Source of the DNA: Streptomyces sp. NBC_01268
GTDB lineage: Bacteria > Actinomycetota > Actinomycetes > Streptomycetales > Streptomycetaceae
Length of the DNA stretch: 64,000 bases
Direction of reading: 5' to 3'
Assembly (NCBI RefSeq): GCF_036240795.1
Contig: NZ_CP108454.1
Location: 6,632,001-6,696,000, forward strand
Below are positions 1-6,848 of this stretch, in pieces. The notes under the pieces were generated by a model. It saw only the letters and a program-made list of their open reading frames with translations, did not search any database and was not told the DNA's origin. Position numbers and translations under genes: made by a program. Numbering within the stretch: position 1 is the stretch's first letter; every line of letters starts with the position of its first letter.

Positions 1-241
1 TCTCCTTGAAGATGATCGCGCCGAAGACGACGGTGCCGACGCCGCCGATGCCGGTCCAGATGGTGTAGCCGACCGACACGTCCAGCTCCAGCAGGGCGTG
101 GGACAGCGTGTAGATGCCGCCGGCCGCGGCCAGCAGGGTCAGCACGCTGGGCCACAGCTTGGTGAAGCCCTGTGTGGCGTTGGTGCCGAGCGCGAAGAGG
201 ATCTCGAAGACGATGGCGATACCGAGGTAGACCCAGGTCAT
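1..241 (-). CDS. SMR family multidrug efflux subunit (partial, 3' end outside window)
   Basis: The first 80 codons are present, from ATG at 241; the gene runs off the left edge. SMR proteins are four-helix, proton-coupled exporters of cations that work as dimers in the inner membrane. The first helix carries the membrane-embedded acidic residue of the family at Glu13 (IVFEILFA), and the helix-3 segment VGYTIWTGIGGVGTVVFG is typical. It lies 46 nt downstream of a second SMR gene on the same strand, so the two form a paired SMR operon like YkkCD or EbrAB, which act as heterodimers. WTGIGGVG resembles guanidinium exporters (Gdx) more than EmrE, but substrate cannot be assigned from sequence alone. 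Confidence 0.85.
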   Translation of the reverse strand, partial: MTWVYLGIAIVFEILFALGTNATQGFTKLWPSVLTLLAAAGGIYTLSHALLELDVSVGYTIWTGIGGVGTVVFGAIIFKE

Positions 242-287: not shown

Positions 288-701
288 TCAGACCGTGGCC
301 TTGGCGCGCTCTTCGGCGACGCGCTCCTCCGCGACCTTCTTGTTCGCGGCGATCTTGTCCGTGATGCGCAGGGTGGTGCCGCCGCCGATGATCAGGACGA
401 AGGCGAGCACCTTCCAGATCGTCATCGGCTCGTCGTAGATCAGGGTGCCGAAGATGACGGTGCCGACGCCGCCGATGCCGGCCCAGACGGTGTAGCCGAC
501 GCCGACGTCGACGTACTTGAGGGCCTGGGAGAGCGTGTAGATGCCGCACGAGGCCGCGGCGGCCGTGAGGAGCGAGGGGCCGAGGCGGGTGAAGGCGTGG
601 GTGGCCTCGGTGGAGAGGGCGAAGGTGATCTCGAACAGCGACGAGAACAGCAGCCAGGCCCAGCCGATGTTCTGGTTCTTCTGTGTCTGCTCGGCGGACA
701 C
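288..701 (-). CDS. SMR family efflux transporter, first gene of a paired operon
   Basis: This 137-aa protein is slightly longer than the usual 105-110 aa, with an extra N-terminal stretch and a charged Ala/Glu/Lys tail. Four hydrophobic helices are visible. Glu24 in SLFEITFA is the conserved proton/substrate-coupling acid of helix 1, and VGYTVWAGIGGVGTVIFG is the helix-3 signature. It is followed on the same strand by the second SMR gene and is divergent from a MarR regulator at 831, with an inverted repeat between them. The layout suggests MarR-repressed export of a cationic compound. Because a small biosynthetic cluster begins just past the MarR gene, export of its product is possible, but that is inference. 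Confidence 0.88.
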   Translation of the reverse strand: MSAEQTQKNQNIGWAWLLFSSLFEITFALSTEATHAFTRLGPSLLTAAAASCGIYTLSQALKYVDVGVGYTVWAGIGGVGTVIFGTLIYDEPMTIWKVLAFVLIIGGGTTLRITDKIAANKKVAEERVAEERAKATV

Positions 702-734
702 TATGCCTCCATAGTTGTTTGTGCGTGCAAGTTC

Positions 735-830: not shown

Positions 831-1286
831 ATGAACAACGCCAGCACCACGTCTCCCGCACCCACCTCGGACCAGGCCGTCTGGGACCGTGTGCTCACCC
901 TCCACGCGCGGGTCGAGCGGGAGCTCGCCAACGCGCTCCAGCGCCGGCACGGCATCGGCCTCTCGGAGTACCGGGCGCTCGAGAACCTGTCCTCCTCACC
1001 CACCAGCGAGCTGCGCATGCAGGAGCTCGCCGACAAGATCGGGCTCGGGCAGTCCTCGGTCACCCGCCTCGTCGAGCGGCTCAAAGGTGCTGGTTACGCG
1101 TTCAAGGACCTCTGTCCCTCGGACAAGCGCGGGGTCTACGCGGTGATCACGGACGAGGGTCGCAGCCGTTACGTGGCCGCCCGTGCGACCTACGCGGAAG
1201 TGCTCTCCGGCGCGCTCAACTCGCAGGGCGCCGACCCCGCGCTCGCGGCCACCGTGGCCTCGCTGCGCAGCGCCCGCCCGGCGTAA
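831..1286 (+). CDS. MarR family transcriptional regulator
   Basis: This 151-aa winged-helix regulator has the recognition-helix region ELRMQELADKIGLGQSSVTRLVERL and a wing PSDKRGVYAVITDEG corresponding to the family DxRG...LT motif. The ATG at 831 follows GAGGAG at a good distance. MarR proteins repress efflux or catabolic genes and release DNA on binding small phenolic or cationic ligands. It is divergent from the SMR pair and probably represses both that pair and itself through the 735-757 repeat. It also lies immediately upstream of the cluster starting at 1664, so a role there cannot be excluded. Confidence 0.85.
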   Translation: MNNASTTSPAPTSDQAVWDRVLTLHARVERELANALQRRHGIGLSEYRALENLSSSPTSELRMQELADKIGLGQSSVTRLVERLKGAGYAFKDLCPSDKRGVYAVITDEGRSRYVAARATYAEVLSGALNSQGADPALAATVASLRSARPA

Positions 1287-1663
1287 CCCCCTCTTCCAGG
1301 GCTCACCCCGAGCGCACCCCCGTCCCCCCGGGCTCGCCTCCGTCCCCTCCCCGCATCCCTCCCCCGACCGCTGGCCGTCGCCTCCCACCGTCTCCATCCG
1401 CCGGAGACGGAAGGGCGCGGCCTTTTTGCGTTCACACGTCCGCAGCACCGACTTAATGATCTTGACTTAGAGTATTAGTTGCATGCACAAGCGGTGACCT
1501 AGGTCACAACGCGACCGCTCGGTATATGCTTGACCGTGCATGGAAACTCGGTAGTGTCTGATCCCGGCGCAGATCGGTCCGAACGGAAGGCGTTCACTCG
1601 AACGAAGACCGGACGGACCGGACGGTGCTTGGCCCAGTCTTTTCCAGACCATGCGGGGGAAAC
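1287..1663. promoter_or_regulatory. Intergenic region upstream of the A-PCP cluster with a 14-bp palindrome
   Basis: This 377-bp gap holds no convincing gene. At 1494-1507 is a perfect 14-bp palindrome, GTGACCTAGGTCAC, overlapping a second imperfect pairing of GCGGT (1491-1495) with ACCGC (1514-1518). The AT-richer stretch 1455-1535 contains TTGACT and TATATGCT-like hexamers that could be promoter elements. The region is the only plausible promoter for the seven-gene cluster, so the palindrome is a candidate cluster operator. The first half (1287-1440) is GC-rich with nothing recognisable. Confidence 0.45.
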
Positions 1664-3121
1664 GTGCCATCGCCCAGCCTTGCCCAGAACATCGCCGCGC
1701 ACGCCGAGCGGCAGCCTTCCTCGACGGCGCTCGTGCTCAACGACGAGCGGGTGACCTACGGCGAACTCGCCGCCCTGGTGGCGCTCCTGTCGGAGCGGCT
1801 CGCGGCGGCGGACCTCCCGGCCGACAGGCCGGTGTGCGTACCGGCCCGCAAGGACCCGGCGACCGTCGCCCTGATGCTCGCCGCCTTCGGCCGGCCCCTG
1901 GTCGTCCTCGCGCCCTCCGCCGAACTCGGCGGGGACGCCCTCGACCGGATCTGCCGTCAGGCGCGGGTCTCGGCGCGCCTGACGGCCGCCGCCGACGGCA
2001 CCCTGACCGTCCGGCACCAGGAGGAGGACGAGGCCGCCGCGGACGGCTTCGCCCGGCCCGCCGCCGACGCGGCCCGGCTGCTCCTGACCACCTCCGGCTC
2101 CACCGGCACCCCCAAACTGGTGCCGATCGGGACCGGGGCCTTCGACGCCTTCGCCGCGTGGGCCGTCGAGGAGTTCCGCATCACCGCCGCGGACGGTTCG
2201 CTGTCCTACGCCCCGCTCAACTTCGACCTGGCCCTGCTCGACGTGTGGACCTTCCTCGGCGCCGGGGCGCGGGTCGTCCTGGTCGACCGCGAGAAGGCCA
2301 CCGACGCCCCGTACCTGCGGAGCCTCGTCGCGGACGGCACGGTCACCTTCGTCCAGGGGGTGCCGCTGCTCTACCGCCTCCTCACCGAGGGGGAGGGGGG
2401 CTTCGAGCGGGTGCGCGAGGTCGTCCTCACCGGGGACGCCGTACCGCAGGACCTCCTGAAACGTGCCGCAGAATCGTTTCCTCTCGCGCGGTTCCACAAC
2501 GTCTACGGCTGCACCGAGACCAACGACAGCTTCGTGCACCCCATCGACCCGCGCACCGCACACGGGAAGATCCCGATCGGCCGGCCGCTGCCCGGCGTCG
2601 AGGCCGCGGTCCTCGACGACGAGGGGCGGACGCTGACCGGACCCGGCAGCGGCGAACTCGTCGTCCGCACCCCCTTCCAGACCACCGGCTACCTCCAGGA
2701 ATCCCTGAACCCGGACGTGTTCGTCGTCCGCGAGGGCCGGGTCTTCTACCGCACCGGGGACATCGTCACCCGCAACGCCGACGGCCTCTACCAGCTCGAA
2801 GGCCGCTCCGACTGGCAGGTCAAGGTGCGCGGGGTGCGCACCAACCTCCAGGAGGTCGAGTCCGTCCTCGCCCGGCACCCCGACGTCGAGGAGGCGGCCG
2901 TCGTCGCCCTCCCCGACCCGGAAGCCGGGGTGAAACTGCACGCCCGCCTCACCAAGCGGGCCGGAGCCGGCCTCAACTCCCTCACGATCCGCTCGTACGC
3001 GGGAGCCAACCTGCCCCGCCACGCCATTCCGTCCAGCGTCCGCATCAGCGAGATCCCCCTGCCGCGCACCTCGACCGGCAAGCCGGACCGCAACAAGATC
3101 AAGGAGGAGATCAGCGCATGA
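1664..3121 (+). CDS. Stand-alone amino acid adenylation enzyme (NRPS A-domain type)
   Basis: Activates a carboxylic acid as the acyl-adenylate and loads it on a carrier protein. I place the start at GTG 1664, behind GGGGGA at 1655-1660, giving 485 aa. Core motifs are present: A3 SGSTGTPK (144-151), A4 FDLALLD with Asp188 (the residue that binds an alpha-amino group), A5 NVYGCTET (279-286), A7 YRTGD (362-366) and A10 TSTGK with Lys473. Hand alignment to GrsA gives pocket residues D-L-L near positions 235/236/239, L-G at 299/301 and V-D-S at 322/330/331. The first residues resemble prolyl activators such as PltF/RedM, but the polar Asp near 330 suggests a different amino acid. The stop overlaps the carrier-protein start (ATGA), indicating translational coupling. 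Confidence 0.88.
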   Translation: MPSPSLAQNIAAHAERQPSSTALVLNDERVTYGELAALVALLSERLAAADLPADRPVCVPARKDPATVALMLAAFGRPLVVLAPSAELGGDALDRICRQARVSARLTAAADGTLTVRHQEEDEAAADGFARPAADAARLLLTTSGSTGTPKLVPIGTGAFDAFAAWAVEEFRITAADGSLSYAPLNFDLALLDVWTFLGAGARVVLVDREKATDAPYLRSLVADGTVTFVQGVPLLYRLLTEGEGGFERVREVVLTGDAVPQDLLKRAAESFPLARFHNVYGCTETNDSFVHPIDPRTAHGKIPIGRPLPGVEAAVLDDEGRTLTGPGSGELVVRTPFQTTGYLQESLNPDVFVVREGRVFYRTGDIVTRNADGLYQLEGRSDWQVKVRGVRTNLQEVESVLARHPDVEEAAVVALPDPEAGVKLHARLTKRAGAGLNSLTIRSYAGANLPRHAIPSSVRISEIPLPRTSTGKPDRNKIKEEISA

Positions 3122-3387
3122 GCGCCCCCACCCGTGACATCGCCGGAGAGATCCGCGCCCACCTGCTCACGCAGTACCTGAAGGGCGAGGACATCACCGC
3201 CGAGGACCTGCCCGGCGACTACGAGCTGATCGAGTCGGGCGTCGTCGACTCGCTGGGCCTCGTGAAGCTCATCCAGCACATCGCCAACACCTACGGCGTC
3301 CCCATCGACGACATCGAGATCGGGCCGGACAACTTCCGCACGATCGACGCCATCACCAAGACGATCACGGACAACACCGCTCTCTGA
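3118..3387 (+). CDS. Free-standing peptidyl/acyl carrier protein
   Basis: This 89-aa acidic protein has the phosphopantetheine attachment motif GVVDSLGL, with Ser45 as the modified residue, and the expected four-helix hydrophobic pattern. Its ATG overlaps the adenylation-gene stop by 4 nt, so the pair is almost certainly A-domain plus cognate carrier. The acyl-CoA-dehydrogenase-like protein at 3903 makes this an A/PCP/dehydrogenase trio of the kind that oxidises carrier-bound proline in pyrrole pathways (PltF/PltL/PltE, RedM/RedO/RedW). The substrate here is likely an amino acid held as its thioester. Confidence 0.9.
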   Translation: MSAPTRDIAGEIRAHLLTQYLKGEDITAEDLPGDYELIESGVVDSLGLVKLIQHIANTYGVPIDDIEIGPDNFRTIDAITKTITDNTAL

Positions 3388-3441
3388 ACGACCCCCTCAG
3401 GCATCCGCCAGGTTTCCGCACATTCCGCAGAGGAGTCACGC

Positions 3442-3816
3442 ATGTTCACGCGCACGCTCGAGGACGTCACCCCGGTCGAGTGGGGCAACGGCACCAGCCA
3501 CCGGCTGCTGACCGACGCCGACAAGATGGGCTTCACCGTCTGCAAGACGCTGGTCCGCAAGGGCACCAACTCCGCCCTCCAGTACCGCAACCACCTGGAG
3601 GCCTGCTACTGCGTGGCCGGCTCCGGCGCGGTCGTGCACAAGGACGGCACCGTCTTCAAGATCAACCCGGGCACCATCTACGTCCTCGACGAGCACGACC
3701 CGCACTACCTCATAGCCTCCGAGCACGAGGACCTGCACCTCATCTCGGTCTTCAACCCGCCGCTCACGGGCGCGGAGCAGCACAGACTCTCCGAGGACGG
3801 CTTCTCCCAGTACTAG
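3442..3816 (+). CDS. Ectoine synthase-like cupin (EctC family) in a biosynthetic cluster
   Basis: This 124-aa protein aligns along nearly its whole length with EctC, the cupin that cyclises N-gamma-acetyl-diaminobutyrate to ectoine. Shared blocks are QYRNHLEACYC, GTIYVLDEHDPHYL and SVFNPPLTG. The residues matching the EctC metal ligands are present (Glu53, Tyr80, His88), as are Glu112 and His114 near the C-terminus. Positions for substrate contacts differ: the usual Cys before VF is Ser102, and the EctC Trp/Arg segment near residue 15-20 reads GNGTSHR. There is no ectA, ectB or ectD nearby, so this is not an ectoine operon. I infer a dehydrating cyclase acting on a related amino acid, possibly while carrier-bound. 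An RBS (GAGGAG) precedes ATG 3442. Confidence 0.85.
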   Translation: MFTRTLEDVTPVEWGNGTSHRLLTDADKMGFTVCKTLVRKGTNSALQYRNHLEACYCVAGSGAVVHKDGTVFKINPGTIYVLDEHDPHYLIASEHEDLHLISVFNPPLTGAEQHRLSEDGFSQY

Positions 3817-3902
3817 GCCGCCCCGCGTTCCCCGGCCGGGCCGTCGGCGCGACATGGCCCGGCCGGGGACGCACGCCCCGCCCGCATCCAGGAAGGAAGA
3901 CC

Positions 3903-5054
3903 GTGACCGCCGATGTACTGCCGCCCCTGACCGACCGGGACGGCCCGCTCACCGAACTCGTCGCCCCCTATGCCGACGTCCTGAACGCCGACCTCGCGGA
4001 GCTGGACGCAGGCGGCGTCTTCTCCCGCGCCAAGTGGCAGGCGATCAGGGACAGCGGCATCCTGCGCACCCCCTTCAAGGAGGAGCACGGCGGCAGCGGA
4101 CGCAGCTTCACCGAGACCATGAAGGCCCTCGAAGGCCTCGGCTACCACTGCCGCGACGCCGGCATCGCCTTCTCCACCTCGACGCAGATCGTCTCCCTCG
4201 CCACCCCGCTGGAGAAGTTCGGCTCCGCCGAGCTGAAGGCCCGGTACCTGCCCCGCATCCTGTCCGGCGAGGCGATCACCGCCCACGCCATCACCGAGGA
4301 GTCCGGCGGCTCCGACGCCATGAACATCAGCACCGTCGCCGTCCGCGAGGACGACCACTACGTCGTCGACGGCGGCAAGATGTTCATCACCAACGCCCCC
4401 GTCGCCGACCTCTTCCTGCTGTACGTGCGCACCGGCAAGCCCGGCCCCTTCGGCCTGACCTGCCTGCTCGTCGAACGCGACACCCCCGGTCTGGAGATCG
4501 GCGAACCCCTCGACAAGCTGGGCCTGCGCACCTCCCCCCTCGGCCGGCTGAGCTTCGACCGGCTGCGCGTCCCGGTGACCAACCGGGTCGGCGCCGAGGG
4601 CGGCGGCTTCCTCGTCCTGGACTACGTGATGAAGCGGGAGATCCTCTACGCCTTCTCGCTCTCCCTCGGCGAGATGCGCCACCGGCTCGACACCGTCATC
4701 CGGTTCGCCACCGAGCGCTCCCAGTTCGGGCGGCCCATCTCCGGCTACCAGGCCATCAGCCACAAGATCGTCGACATGCGGATCGCCGTCGAGACCGCCG
4801 CCAAGTGGCTCGCCGACACCGGCGCCAAGGCAGAACGCGGCGAGGACATCTCCCTCGACCTGGCCTCCACCAAGATCGTCGTCTCCGAGGCCAACGTGAA
4901 GACCGCCCTGGACGCCGTCCAGATCCACGGCGGCCGCGGCGTCCTCACCTCGTACGGCATCGAGCGCGACCTGCGCAACTCCGTCGCCGGAACCATCTAC
5001 TCGGGCAGCAGCGAGATCCAGCGCAACCGCATGGCCGCCCTCCTCGGACTCTGA
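3903..5054 (+). CDS. Acyl-CoA dehydrogenase-like flavoenzyme, probably acting on carrier-bound aminoacyl thioester
   Basis: The start is GTG 3903 after AGGAAGGAAGA, giving 383 aa, normal for the family. Signatures are TEESGGSD (131-138) in the FAD/substrate region, ERSQFGRPI (271-279) and the C-terminal IYSGSSEIQRNRM. The position usually held by the catalytic Glu (YEGT) is Ser367. In isovaleryl-CoA dehydrogenase and, as I recall, in prolyl-carrier dehydrogenases the base sits on helix G instead; Glu246 in MKREILYAF is the matching candidate here. With the upstream A-domain and PCP this suggests alpha,beta-oxidation of a tethered amino acid. The gene follows the cupin after 86 nt and precedes the transglutaminase-like gene by 18 nt. 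Confidence 0.85.
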   Translation: MTADVLPPLTDRDGPLTELVAPYADVLNADLAELDAGGVFSRAKWQAIRDSGILRTPFKEEHGGSGRSFTETMKALEGLGYHCRDAGIAFSTSTQIVSLATPLEKFGSAELKARYLPRILSGEAITAHAITEESGGSDAMNISTVAVREDDHYVVDGGKMFITNAPVADLFLLYVRTGKPGPFGLTCLLVERDTPGLEIGEPLDKLGLRTSPLGRLSFDRLRVPVTNRVGAEGGGFLVLDYVMKREILYAFSLSLGEMRHRLDTVIRFATERSQFGRPISGYQAISHKIVDMRIAVETAAKWLADTGAKAERGEDISLDLASTKIVVSEANVKTALDAVQIHGGRGVLTSYGIERDLRNSVAGTIYSGSSEIQRNRMAALLGL

Positions 5055-5072
5055 GCTAGGAGCTCTCCCGTC

Positions 5073-5783
5073 ATGAGCATCGCCCTCGACGAACTGCACG
5101 CACTGACCCGGCCCACGGACTTCCTCGACCACGAGTCCGACGAGGTCCAGAACTTCGTGGACTCCGTCGTCAAGGACCGTGCCGCCGACCGGCGCGAGAA
5201 CGCCGTGAAGCTCTACTACGCCGTCCGGGACGGCCTCGACTACGAGGTCTACGACACCGACCTCAGCCCCCGGGGCCTCAAGGCGTCCAGCGTCCTCACC
5301 GCCGGCCAGGGCTTCTGCCTGCACAAGTCGGTCGTCTACGCCGCCGCCGTCCGCGCCCTGGGCATCCCCTCCAAGCTGGTCTACGGCGACGTCCGCAACC
5401 ACCTCGCCAGCCCCCGGCTGATCGCCCACATCGGCGGTGACGTCTTCTTCCACGGCCTCACCCAGGTCTACCTGGACGGCCGCTGGGTCAAGGCCACCCC
5501 CGTCTTCAACAAGCTGCTCTGCCGCCTCTACGGCATGGAGGCGCTCGAGTTCGACGGCACCGGCGACTCCCTCTACCACCCGTACGCCGGCCAGGGAGGC
5601 AAGGGCTCCATGGAGTTCCTCAAGGACCACGGCTCCTTCGACGACGTCCCGTACGACTTCGTCATCTCCACCATGCGCGCCAAGCACCCCAACTTCCTGA
5701 GCAGCGAGGGCAGCGGCACCGTCAAGGGCGGCTCGCTCGCCGCCGAGGCCGACACCGCCGTCGACGCCACCGCCGGCAGATGA
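5073..5783 (+). CDS. Transglutaminase-like (cysteine protease fold) protein of the cluster
   Basis: This 236-aa protein has a transglutaminase-like core: Cys82 in TAGQGFCLHKS at the start of the core helix and His127 in FFHGLTQVYLDGRWVKATPVFN. The position usually held by the third catalytic residue (Asp in VDPT) is Thr142, although KATPxF(N/D) is seen in some family branches. In biosynthetic clusters this fold forms or exchanges amides from carrier-bound acyl groups (AdmF of andrimid) or cleaves amides or thioesters. Here I infer product release or transfer from the PCP, since no thioesterase is present. The last 20 residues are Ala-rich and look unstructured. RBS TAGGAG precedes ATG 5073. 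Confidence 0.78.
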   Translation: MSIALDELHALTRPTDFLDHESDEVQNFVDSVVKDRAADRRENAVKLYYAVRDGLDYEVYDTDLSPRGLKASSVLTAGQGFCLHKSVVYAAAVRALGIPSKLVYGDVRNHLASPRLIAHIGGDVFFHGLTQVYLDGRWVKATPVFNKLLCRLYGMEALEFDGTGDSLYHPYAGQGGKGSMEFLKDHGSFDDVPYDFVISTMRAKHPNFLSSEGSGTVKGGSLAAEADTAVDATAGR

Positions 5784-5797
5784 GGAGCCGAGAGAGC

Positions 5798-6607
5798 ATG
5801 AGCAGCGCCACCACCTCGCCGTCCGACGGCTGGGACGCCACCACCCGCATCGGCGTCGTCGTCCCCTCGGCCGACATCGGCCCGGAGGCCGAACTCCAGG
5901 CCGTCTCCCCGGACTCGGTGACGATCCACGCCTCGCGCATCGACTTCGGCGGGATGCTCCCCGGCGGGCACATGGTCGCGGAGAAGATCCCCCAGGACCC
6001 CATCACGGCGTTCGTCGAGCCCCCGGCCGTCGACAACGCCGTCAAGCTCCTGGCAGACTCGCCGCTGCACGCACTCGTGCTCGGCTTCACCAGCTCCTCG
6101 TACGTCCTTGGCGTTGACGGCGAGAACGCCCTCTACGAGCGCCTCGCCCCCGTCACCCGCGGCATCCCCGTCACCGGCACCGCCAGGGCGGCCGTCGCCG
6201 GCTTCCGCGCCCTCGGCGCCCGGCGGATCGCGATCGTCAACCCCCCCTGGTTCGACGACAAGCTCTCCACCCAGGGCCAGGAGTACTTCGAGGCCCAGGG
6301 CTTCACCGTGGTCCACCACGGACCCGTCGGCCTGCCGTCCGAGCAGACCGCGATCACCCCGCAGAACCTGTCGGAGTGGATCCGCACCACCGTCGCCGAC
6401 GCCCGCCCCGAGGCCATCCTCGTCGCCGGCAACGGCATCCGCGCCGTCGGCACCGTCCGCGGCCTGGAGGACGAGCTCGGCTTCCACGTCCTCACCGCCA
6501 ACCAGGCCGTCCTGTGGCACGCCCTGCACCTGGCCGGCGCCGCCGAGGCCGCCGCGCGGGTCACCGACTACGGGCGCCTCTTCCGCGCCGTACCGAAGGA
6601 AGCGTGA
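5798..6607 (+). CDS. Asp/Glu racemase-fold protein (maleate isomerase/arylmalonate decarboxylase-like) lacking catalytic cysteines
   Basis: I choose ATG 5798, preceded by GAGGAG at 5783-5788, over ATG 5780, which overlaps the previous stop; the product is 269 aa. The fold is recognisable from IGVVVPSADIGPEAE, the VLGFTSSSY loop (95-102), GTARAAVAGFRALGARRIAIVNP and the ILVAGNGIRAVG loop (207-218). In this superfamily two loops carry catalytic cysteines (maleate isomerase, racemases) or one (arylmalonate decarboxylase). Here those positions are Thr/Ser and Gly/Asn, and the whole protein contains no cysteine. Ordinary racemase or isomerase chemistry is therefore unlikely. It may be a lyase or decarboxylase with another mechanism, or a non-enzymatic partner. 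Confidence 0.75.
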   Translation: MSSATTSPSDGWDATTRIGVVVPSADIGPEAELQAVSPDSVTIHASRIDFGGMLPGGHMVAEKIPQDPITAFVEPPAVDNAVKLLADSPLHALVLGFTSSSYVLGVDGENALYERLAPVTRGIPVTGTARAAVAGFRALGARRIAIVNPPWFDDKLSTQGQEYFEAQGFTVVHHGPVGLPSEQTAITPQNLSEWIRTTVADARPEAILVAGNGIRAVGTVRGLEDELGFHVLTANQAVLWHALHLAGAAEAAARVTDYGRLFRAVPKEA

Positions 6608-6611
6608 GCGG

Positions 6612-6848
6612 ATGCTGCCCGCCGACGGCTACGTCGCCGTGTTCACCACCCCCGAGGGCGACGTCTACCGCACCCCCCTGGTCTGCTGGCGCACCGACGG
6701 ACCGAACGTGTACGGAGTGACCCTCCACAAGGGCGGGCTGCGCAGGGCCGAGGAACTCCCCGGCTTCACCCGCTACGCCGTCAAGCCCGACTGCTCCTGC
6801 GCGACCGCCGTCCCGGCGCCCGTCGCCAGGCAGCTCGCGAGCCGGTAG
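6612..6848 (+). CDS. Small hypothetical protein, last gene of the A-PCP cluster
   Basis: ATG 6612 follows the racemase-like stop by 4 nt, so the gene is very likely co-translated. The 78-aa product begins MLPADGYVAVFTTPEGDVYR and contains three cysteines, two of them in CSC near residues 61-63. I recognise no family. Its position before a strong terminator marks it as the end of the operon. It may be a small accessory or metal-binding protein, but that is only a guess. Confidence 0.6.
   Translation: MLPADGYVAVFTTPEGDVYRTPLVCWRTDGPNVYGVTLHKGGLRRAEELPGFTRYAVKPDCSCATAVPAPVARQLASR

Follow-up and report, generated by a model that had tools for sequence, protein, structure and literature searches.

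The window analysed here is a stretch of 64,000 nucleotides of Streptomyces sp. NBC_01268 (G000:C1:6632001-6696000; the genome, G000, is one contig of 8.5 Mb). Near its start, seven tightly spaced genes encode a stand-alone adenylation (A) enzyme, a peptidyl carrier protein (PCP), an EctC-like cupin, an acyl-CoA-dehydrogenase-like protein (ACAD), a transglutaminase-fold protein (TG), an AMDase/EutA-like protein (EutA1) and a small protein. They are preceded by genes for two SMR transporter subunits and a regulator. Locus classes named in the list are defined below.

1..241, minus strand: SMR transporter subunit 1, incomplete at the window edge; matches in composite and class II clusters
288..701, minus strand: SMR transporter subunit 2 (Multi_Drug_Res, SugE/Qac-like), probably for export
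831..1286, plus strand: MarR-family regulator (domain match)
1664..3121, plus strand: stand-alone A enzyme, SdmC-like, pocket DLLQVTVDS (Pfam AMP-binding)
3118..3387, plus strand: PCP, SdmD-like (Pfam PP-binding; DSL motif read in the sequence)
3442..3816, plus strand: EctC-like cupin cyclase, SdmE-like (Pfam Ectoine_synth, 1.9e-34)
3903..5054, plus strand: ACAD, an aminoacyl-PCP dehydrogenase akin to RedW, PigA and prolyl-acyl-carrier-protein dehydrogenase (Pfam Acyl-CoA_dh)
5073..5783, plus strand: TG, transglutaminase/NAT fold, probable release enzyme (Pfam Transglut_core, 1e-16)
5798..6607, plus strand: EutA1, AMDase/EutA-like, without catalytic cysteines (Pfam Amdase)
6612..6848, plus strand: DUF6253 small protein (Pfam DUF6253, 1.4e-35)

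The seven genes described in the initial annotation all exist at these positions, including the ATGA overlap of the A and PCP genes, and Pfam agrees with the family named for each. An NCBIfam scan of the window proteins gave no match for TG or DUF6253. A longer start of EutA1, at 5780, would run over the stop of the TG gene. Compared with the sister species G342, dN/dS is 0.06-0.36 in 15 of the 16 genes of the cluster delimited below (SMR subunit 1 was left out) and 0.13 in one flank gene; the tested cluster genes, DUF6253 included, look selected. Conserved gene order in relatives, set beforehand as a check, was indeed found. The order is kept in other genera, and the cupin and ACAD genes lie within ~1.5 kb of TG in 5/5 family loci, whereas another query gene lies that close in 0/14 loci of unrelated transglutaminases.

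A profile scan of genome contigs with the TG alignment yielded 449 relatives; the analysis used the 80 best matches, which are not a random sample. The A, PCP, EctC, ACAD and TG genes share a strand and a span of at most 9 kb in 68/80 loci; 53 of these have the order of the window, 9 the order PCP-EctC-A-ACAD-TG and 6 the order TG-EctC-ACAD-A-PCP. The loci were counted by tblastn. A simple GC-frame gene finder missed genes at lower-GC loci, and the residue counts given below for the A pocket, EctC and EutA rest on the genes that it did find.

A cluster split by the window edge

The window edge splits a cluster of 16 genes and ~12.05 kb, extending from the EutA2 gene through DUF6253. Of these genes, 10 are inside the window, which covers ~57% of the cluster length. 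The remainder is upstream, on the stretch L026 of this genome, numbered so that L026 20000 immediately precedes window position 1.

L026 14798-18544, minus strand, 1.5-5.2 kb before the window: genes for a PsuG/AlnA-type C-glycosidase, a HAD phosphatase, an MFS exporter and EutA2
L026 17690-18544, minus strand: the PsuG-like C-glycosidase (AlnA match 2.2e-65; also matches the E. coli pseudouridine-5'-phosphate glycosidase)
L026 17013-17693, minus strand: the HAD phosphatase, SdmB-like (48% identical to an L025 protein matching HAD_2)
L026 14798-19915: the four genes together with DsbA-like and cytidine-deaminase-fold genes
L026 11111-11761: trpF-like gene with a PRAI domain beside the cluster, kept in the sister species

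The C-glycosidase and phosphatase genes are ~3 kb upstream of the A gene, separated from it by the DsbA-like and deaminase genes followed by the SMR pair and MarR. The PsuG-like protein keeps the CAGAKS lysine and the GGVHR histidine, which we take to be the catalytic residues. The sister species holds the whole cluster at 91-100% amino acid identity (best match per query).

Taken together, the seven genes are very probably part of a showdomycin-type C-nucleoside cluster, the core of which probably makes a small, reactive aminopyrrole from glutamine. Passages of the review PMC8724604 attribute 16 genes and a length of 12.2 kb to the S. showdoensis cluster for showdomycin, with the cyclase SdmE acting on L-glutamine, the A enzyme SdmC and the PCP SdmD, followed by oxidation and hydrolysis, the C-glycosynthase SdmA and the phosphatase SdmB; the late steps are called nonenzymatic. 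The sdm cluster (S. showdoensis ATCC 15227, MIBiG BGC0001778), as far as these passages describe it, and the cluster studied here share the A enzyme, PCP, cyclase and oxidation step, a YeiN-like C-glycosynthase, a phosphatase, the number of 16 genes, a length of ~12 kb and a nearby trpF, the last mentioned as close to the showdomycin cluster in a passage of PMC13055916.

The initial annotation could match the gene combination to no known product and named identity with a characterised cluster as its refutation. The former claim does not hold: the same enzyme kinds with the upstream C-glycosidase and phosphatase are those of the showdomycin type, and the cassette also occurs in the kosinostatin producer. 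As to the latter, such a cluster has largely been found at the level of gene kinds. A genuinely unassigned product was ruled out once the PsuG half had been located upstream. The window cluster is resolved to a known antibiotic type, the observation having been split by the window edge.

Several points weigh against the showdomycin assignment. The likeness to the sdm cluster is one of gene kinds taken from the review descriptions, on which the equivalence with SdmC, SdmD and SdmE rests as well, and the cluster boundaries were set after the count of 16 was known from the review. PsuG-less clusters with the same flank genes are present in 16/80 loci, and the window genes alone might make another product. 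Passages of PMC12022981 liken a cluster of strain QL37 that has a LysW orthologue to a putative maleimycin cluster in S. showdoensis. LysW, although expected from that cluster, could be found in neither G000 nor G342. Because of this the window genome is probably not that of S. showdoensis ATCC 15227 but that of a relative, another species.

A PsuG-fold C-glycosidase with a HAD phosphatase is also known from minimycin/indigoidine and alnumycin biosynthesis (IndA/AlnA-AlnB). The base in these systems comes from other chemistry, and we know of no EctC-like cyclase there.

Conserved residues and the proposed pathway

Across 70 A enzymes representing all classes, the nine positions of the A pocket, anchored by eye to GrsA numbering, read, with few exceptions, DLLQ(V/L/I/M)T(V/I/L)DS. 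Seven of the nine columns are 94-100% one residue, as compared to 58% in the mean column. The conserved pocket Asp, which in such enzymes holds the substrate alpha-amine, is present and thus points to an amino-acid substrate; the near-invariant pocket argues for a single one.

Prolyl-carrier-protein dehydrogenases are the closest relatives of the dehydrogenase, in which the Glu aligned by eye with MEWERG is kept. One possibility is, therefore, that prolyl-PCP is oxidised to a pyrrole-2-carboxyl unit, as in prodigiosin and pyoluteorin, the cupin and transglutaminase being extras. The proline-to-pyrrole trios (RedM/RedO/RedW, PigA) similarly consist of a stand-alone A enzyme, PCP and ACAD. However, these trios are not known to have a cyclase or a transglutaminase-fold release enzyme, and their A pocket differs: DLLQVTVDS is unlike the proline codes known to us. 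Moreover, the EctC-like cyclase, beside the other four genes in 68/80 loci, would have no job on proline. We consider this explanation very improbable.

Of the 71 aligned members of the EctC-like family, 70 (one gap) keep the Glu, and all keep the Tyr and His, that we take to be the iron ligands of ectoine synthases. The EctC and EutA homology could suggest a pathway to an ectoine-like compatible solute. However, the substrate-pocket residues differ. At positions 38 and 104 of 5onn (Asn and Cys, presumably pocket residues) the window protein has Cys34 and Ser102; the family has A, C or T at the former position, and Ser (56/71) or Cys (15) at the latter. Three paralogues of 37% identity, which we regard as ordinary EctC, have His and Cys here. 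The cluster genes that were scanned include neither EctA nor EctB, and the A and PCP genes indicate carrier-bound chemistry. Ectoine biosynthesis was rejected on the changed pocket and the missing EctA and EctB, and is the least probable of the explanations considered here.

The Cys-His pair of TG (C82, H127) is invariant in 45 sequences. A predicted model of the protein matches transglutaminases, NATs and GdmF; the best phmmer hit of TG against Protein Data Bank (PDB) sequences had E 0.39 only. Thr142 stands, by eye, at the place of the expected third Asp, and other acids could serve instead.

Asp/Glu racemases, maleate isomerases and arylmalonate decarboxylases use one or two catalytic cysteines. 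EutA1 has Phe and Gly at these two positions; in EutA2 a Cys directly precedes the first of them. The protein given an Asp/Glu racemase fold in the initial annotation is unlikely to be a racemase, and this role of EutA1 was rejected, as both cysteine positions are lost.

The following pathway, whose overall outline for showdomycin is taken from passages of PMC8724604, is consistent with the gene content, homology, synteny and conserved pockets described here. The A enzyme would activate L-glutamine, or its cyclised form, and load it onto PCP; in those passages cyclisation precedes carrier loading. The EctC-like cupin would join the side-chain amide to the alpha-amine, giving a cyclic amidine (2-amino-pyrroline-5-carboxylate), from which ACAD would take two electrons to form the 2-aminopyrrole. 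TG would then free 2-aminopyrrole-5-carboxylate. The PsuG/AlnA-type enzyme would couple this with ribose 5-phosphate, and the HAD phosphatase would strip the phosphate. Oxidation, decarboxylation and deamination would lead to the maleimide, perhaps aided by the EutA-like, DsbA-like and deaminase proteins. The product would be exported by the SMR pair and the MFS protein under MarR control. We infer the enzymes of the release and late steps, the exporters and the regulation. As to the earlier suggestions, an A/PCP/dehydrogenase logic, a cyclase role of the EctC-like protein and a transglutaminase-like release enzyme are all plausible and agree with the outline for showdomycin, the enzyme steps themselves being inferred.

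The cassette in other genomes

The five core genes behave as a portable cassette present in many bacteria, and by the additional genes joined to it the 80 loci fall into the following groups.

Class I (PsuG): 19/80 loci
Class II (EutA1/MarR set, no PsuG): 16/80 loci
Class I+II: 1/80 loci
Class III (TrpB-like): 23/80 loci
Class IV (TrpD and TrpC): 9/80 loci
Class IV with TrpB-like: 3/80 loci
Other: 9/80 loci

The core with PsuG, HAD, MFS and EutA2 genes at one locus is seen in 19/80 loci and in 3/60 relatives (L023-L025), where TG is followed by PsuG/indigoidine-A-like, HAD, MFS and AMDase-like genes; the four genes are present in 19/19 class I loci. Matches to MarR, SMR, DsbA and deaminase with at least 40% identity were found in 0/19 class I loci. 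Class II loci have MarR and EutA1 in 16/16 cases, and SMR, DsbA and deaminase in 14/16. DUF6253 at no less than 40% identity is present in 10/80 loci, nine of class II and one composite. The composite type, combining PsuG with the class II set, was observed in the window genome, G342, S. triticisoli (L031) and, in part, L136. A class II set was also seen on L105, a contig of a gammaproteobacterial metagenome-assembled genome with 56.5% GC. According to a passage of PMC8782336, an 'ectoine, butyrolactone' region of another strain is 47% similar to showdomycin BGC0001778; our guess is that this region could be a class II cluster, since those carry EctC-like and AfsA genes.

The class II loci raise the possibility that the window genes form a separate, PsuG-less pathway to a non-nucleoside aminopyrrole or maleimide electrophile, the upstream PsuG set lying beside it and serving a purpose of its own or a common one. 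Indeed, 16/80 loci have MarR, core genes and EutA1 without an sdm-type PsuG, and SMR, DsbA and deaminase matches of at least 40% identity accompany them in 14 of these loci. Searches of 12 complete class II genomes gave PsuG matches of only 38-43% identity (10 genomes) or none (2 genomes); most matches fall in this range among the matches listed for 392 genomes of the genus. A gene of the OYE family of flavin oxidoreductases occurs in 8/16 class II loci and in the composite L031 (for example, L043 17688-18803); N-ethylmaleimide reductases belong to this family, fitting a maleimide-like product. On the other hand, the class II and PsuG sets co-occur in all composite genomes (partly in L136), and since one TG of this family was found in the window genome, there is one core for both sets. 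Such a separate pathway is thus unlikely, and a showdomycin-type cluster remains the preferred assignment.

In a quick LG+G4 tree built from 74 cores (A, EctC, ACAD and TG, concatenated), the window falls in a supported group of 22 rows, the others being 14 of class II, 6 of class I and one composite. The class labels require 15 changes on the tree, compared to 41.7 in shuffles. This is indicative of tails having been swapped several times; the number of swaps is itself only indicative because of the long branches joined in the tree.

Some clusters have further genes. L087, L089 and L093 combine A, PCP, TrpD, TrpA, ACAD, TG, TrpB-like, TrpF and TrpC with a UbiD-family gene, and L089 and L093 also have a UbiX-like gene; these may be read as a tryptophan-like pathway built on the cassette. 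In some class III clusters there is a pterin-binding (dihydropteroate-synthase-like) gene (L058 5475-6332) or methylaspartate mutase genes (L094 13983-16168), hinting at an antifolate target or a methylaspartate unit.

The kosinostatin producer Micromonospora okii TP-A0468 has the genes A-PCP-TrpD-TrpA-EctC-ACAD-TrpF-TrpC in one stretch (G061:C12; L133 4022-10622) and MT-TG-UbiD-like genes (L134 12320-15308) 47 kb away on the same contig. The identity of the A, PCP, EctC, ACAD and TG homologues is 40-57%. The kst cluster differs in that TrpD/TrpA/TrpF/TrpC and UbiD-like genes are joined to them, and no PsuG match was found within the stretches searched. The A enzyme pocket, DLLQVTLDS, is of the showdomycin type, which suggests that the kosinostatin enzyme loads the same substrate as the showdomycin enzyme. 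Because this pocket is shared with showdomycin-type clusters, there is a conflict with the published loading of nicotinic acid and its conversion to pyrrole by the kstB genes, as given in passages of PMC7918784 (citing Ma 2013) and, for the same precursor, of PMC5321127. The origin of the kosinostatin pyrrole becomes directly testable.

A broader reading, to which we give slightly less than even credence, is that A-PCP-EctC-ACAD-TG is a portable module that converts glutamine to 2-aminopyrrole-5-carboxylate, an anthranilate analogue with a five-membered ring, and that it has been plugged repeatedly into different tails in Actinomycetota and some Pseudomonadota. The same tentative reading comprises the tails, namely C-ribosylation (showdomycin), a tryptophan-like TrpD-F-C-A-(B) route to pyrrolopyrroles, a direct joining with serine by a TrpB-like enzyme and the PsuG-less electrophile pathway. 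It also comprises two corollaries: the kosinostatin pyrrole would come from glutamine, not nicotinate, and the cysteine-less EutA-like proteins would perform enzymatically a late step now called spontaneous, perhaps the decarboxylation for which some tryptophan-like clusters have UbiD.

Other observations tell against our reading. At least one core gene is missing in 12/80 loci, some of which are short contigs; in L092 the EctC and ACAD genes are 47 kb off. L136 has composite flanks (PsuG, HAD, MFS, MarR, SMR, DsbA, deaminase, A, PCP), and no EctC, ACAD or TG was found within the 20 kb examined. The class split is imperfect, as L023 and L025, class I relatives beyond the 80, have MarR and SMR ~5 kb upstream. 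Six class IV loci are alphaproteobacterial records with TrpD matches of only 30-36%. Finally, genome-wide searches for L090, L091 and L093, which are tryptophan-like or partial clusters, found no EctC-like cupin of this family, the best match being 37%, the level of ordinary ectoine synthases. Cyclisation there must be done in some other way, and our confidence in the broader reading, formerly even, was lowered slightly because of these genomes.

No report of the exact gene combination or of the wider cassette family was found in the openly licensed literature, which does not show its absence elsewhere. This wider family is a more interesting result than the window cluster itself, as it ties showdomycin, kosinostatin and several unmatched pathway types to one shared building block. 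The combination of TG, the EctC-like protein and the DLLQxTxDS pocket can serve as a search key for new aminopyrrole products.

Candidate regulatory sites

Two pattern matches flank the MarR gene.

719..730, plus strand: putative MarR operator TTGTGCGTGCAA
1479..1490, minus strand: putative MarR operator preceding the A gene

The pattern, which was chosen after both sites had been seen, occurs twice in 64 kb, compared to 0.09 expected, and 1/100 shuffles reached two. Sites within one mismatch were found in 3/16 class II loci. There is none in the other 13/16, nor in the composites L031 and L136, and in the sister species (L135) the candidate at 1479..1490 has no counterpart with one mismatch or fewer; these results count against the proposed operators. 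A perfect inverted repeat, CTTAGGA-N9-TCCTAAG, lies at 735-757 of the window, between the SMR and MarR genes, and is identical in the sister species.

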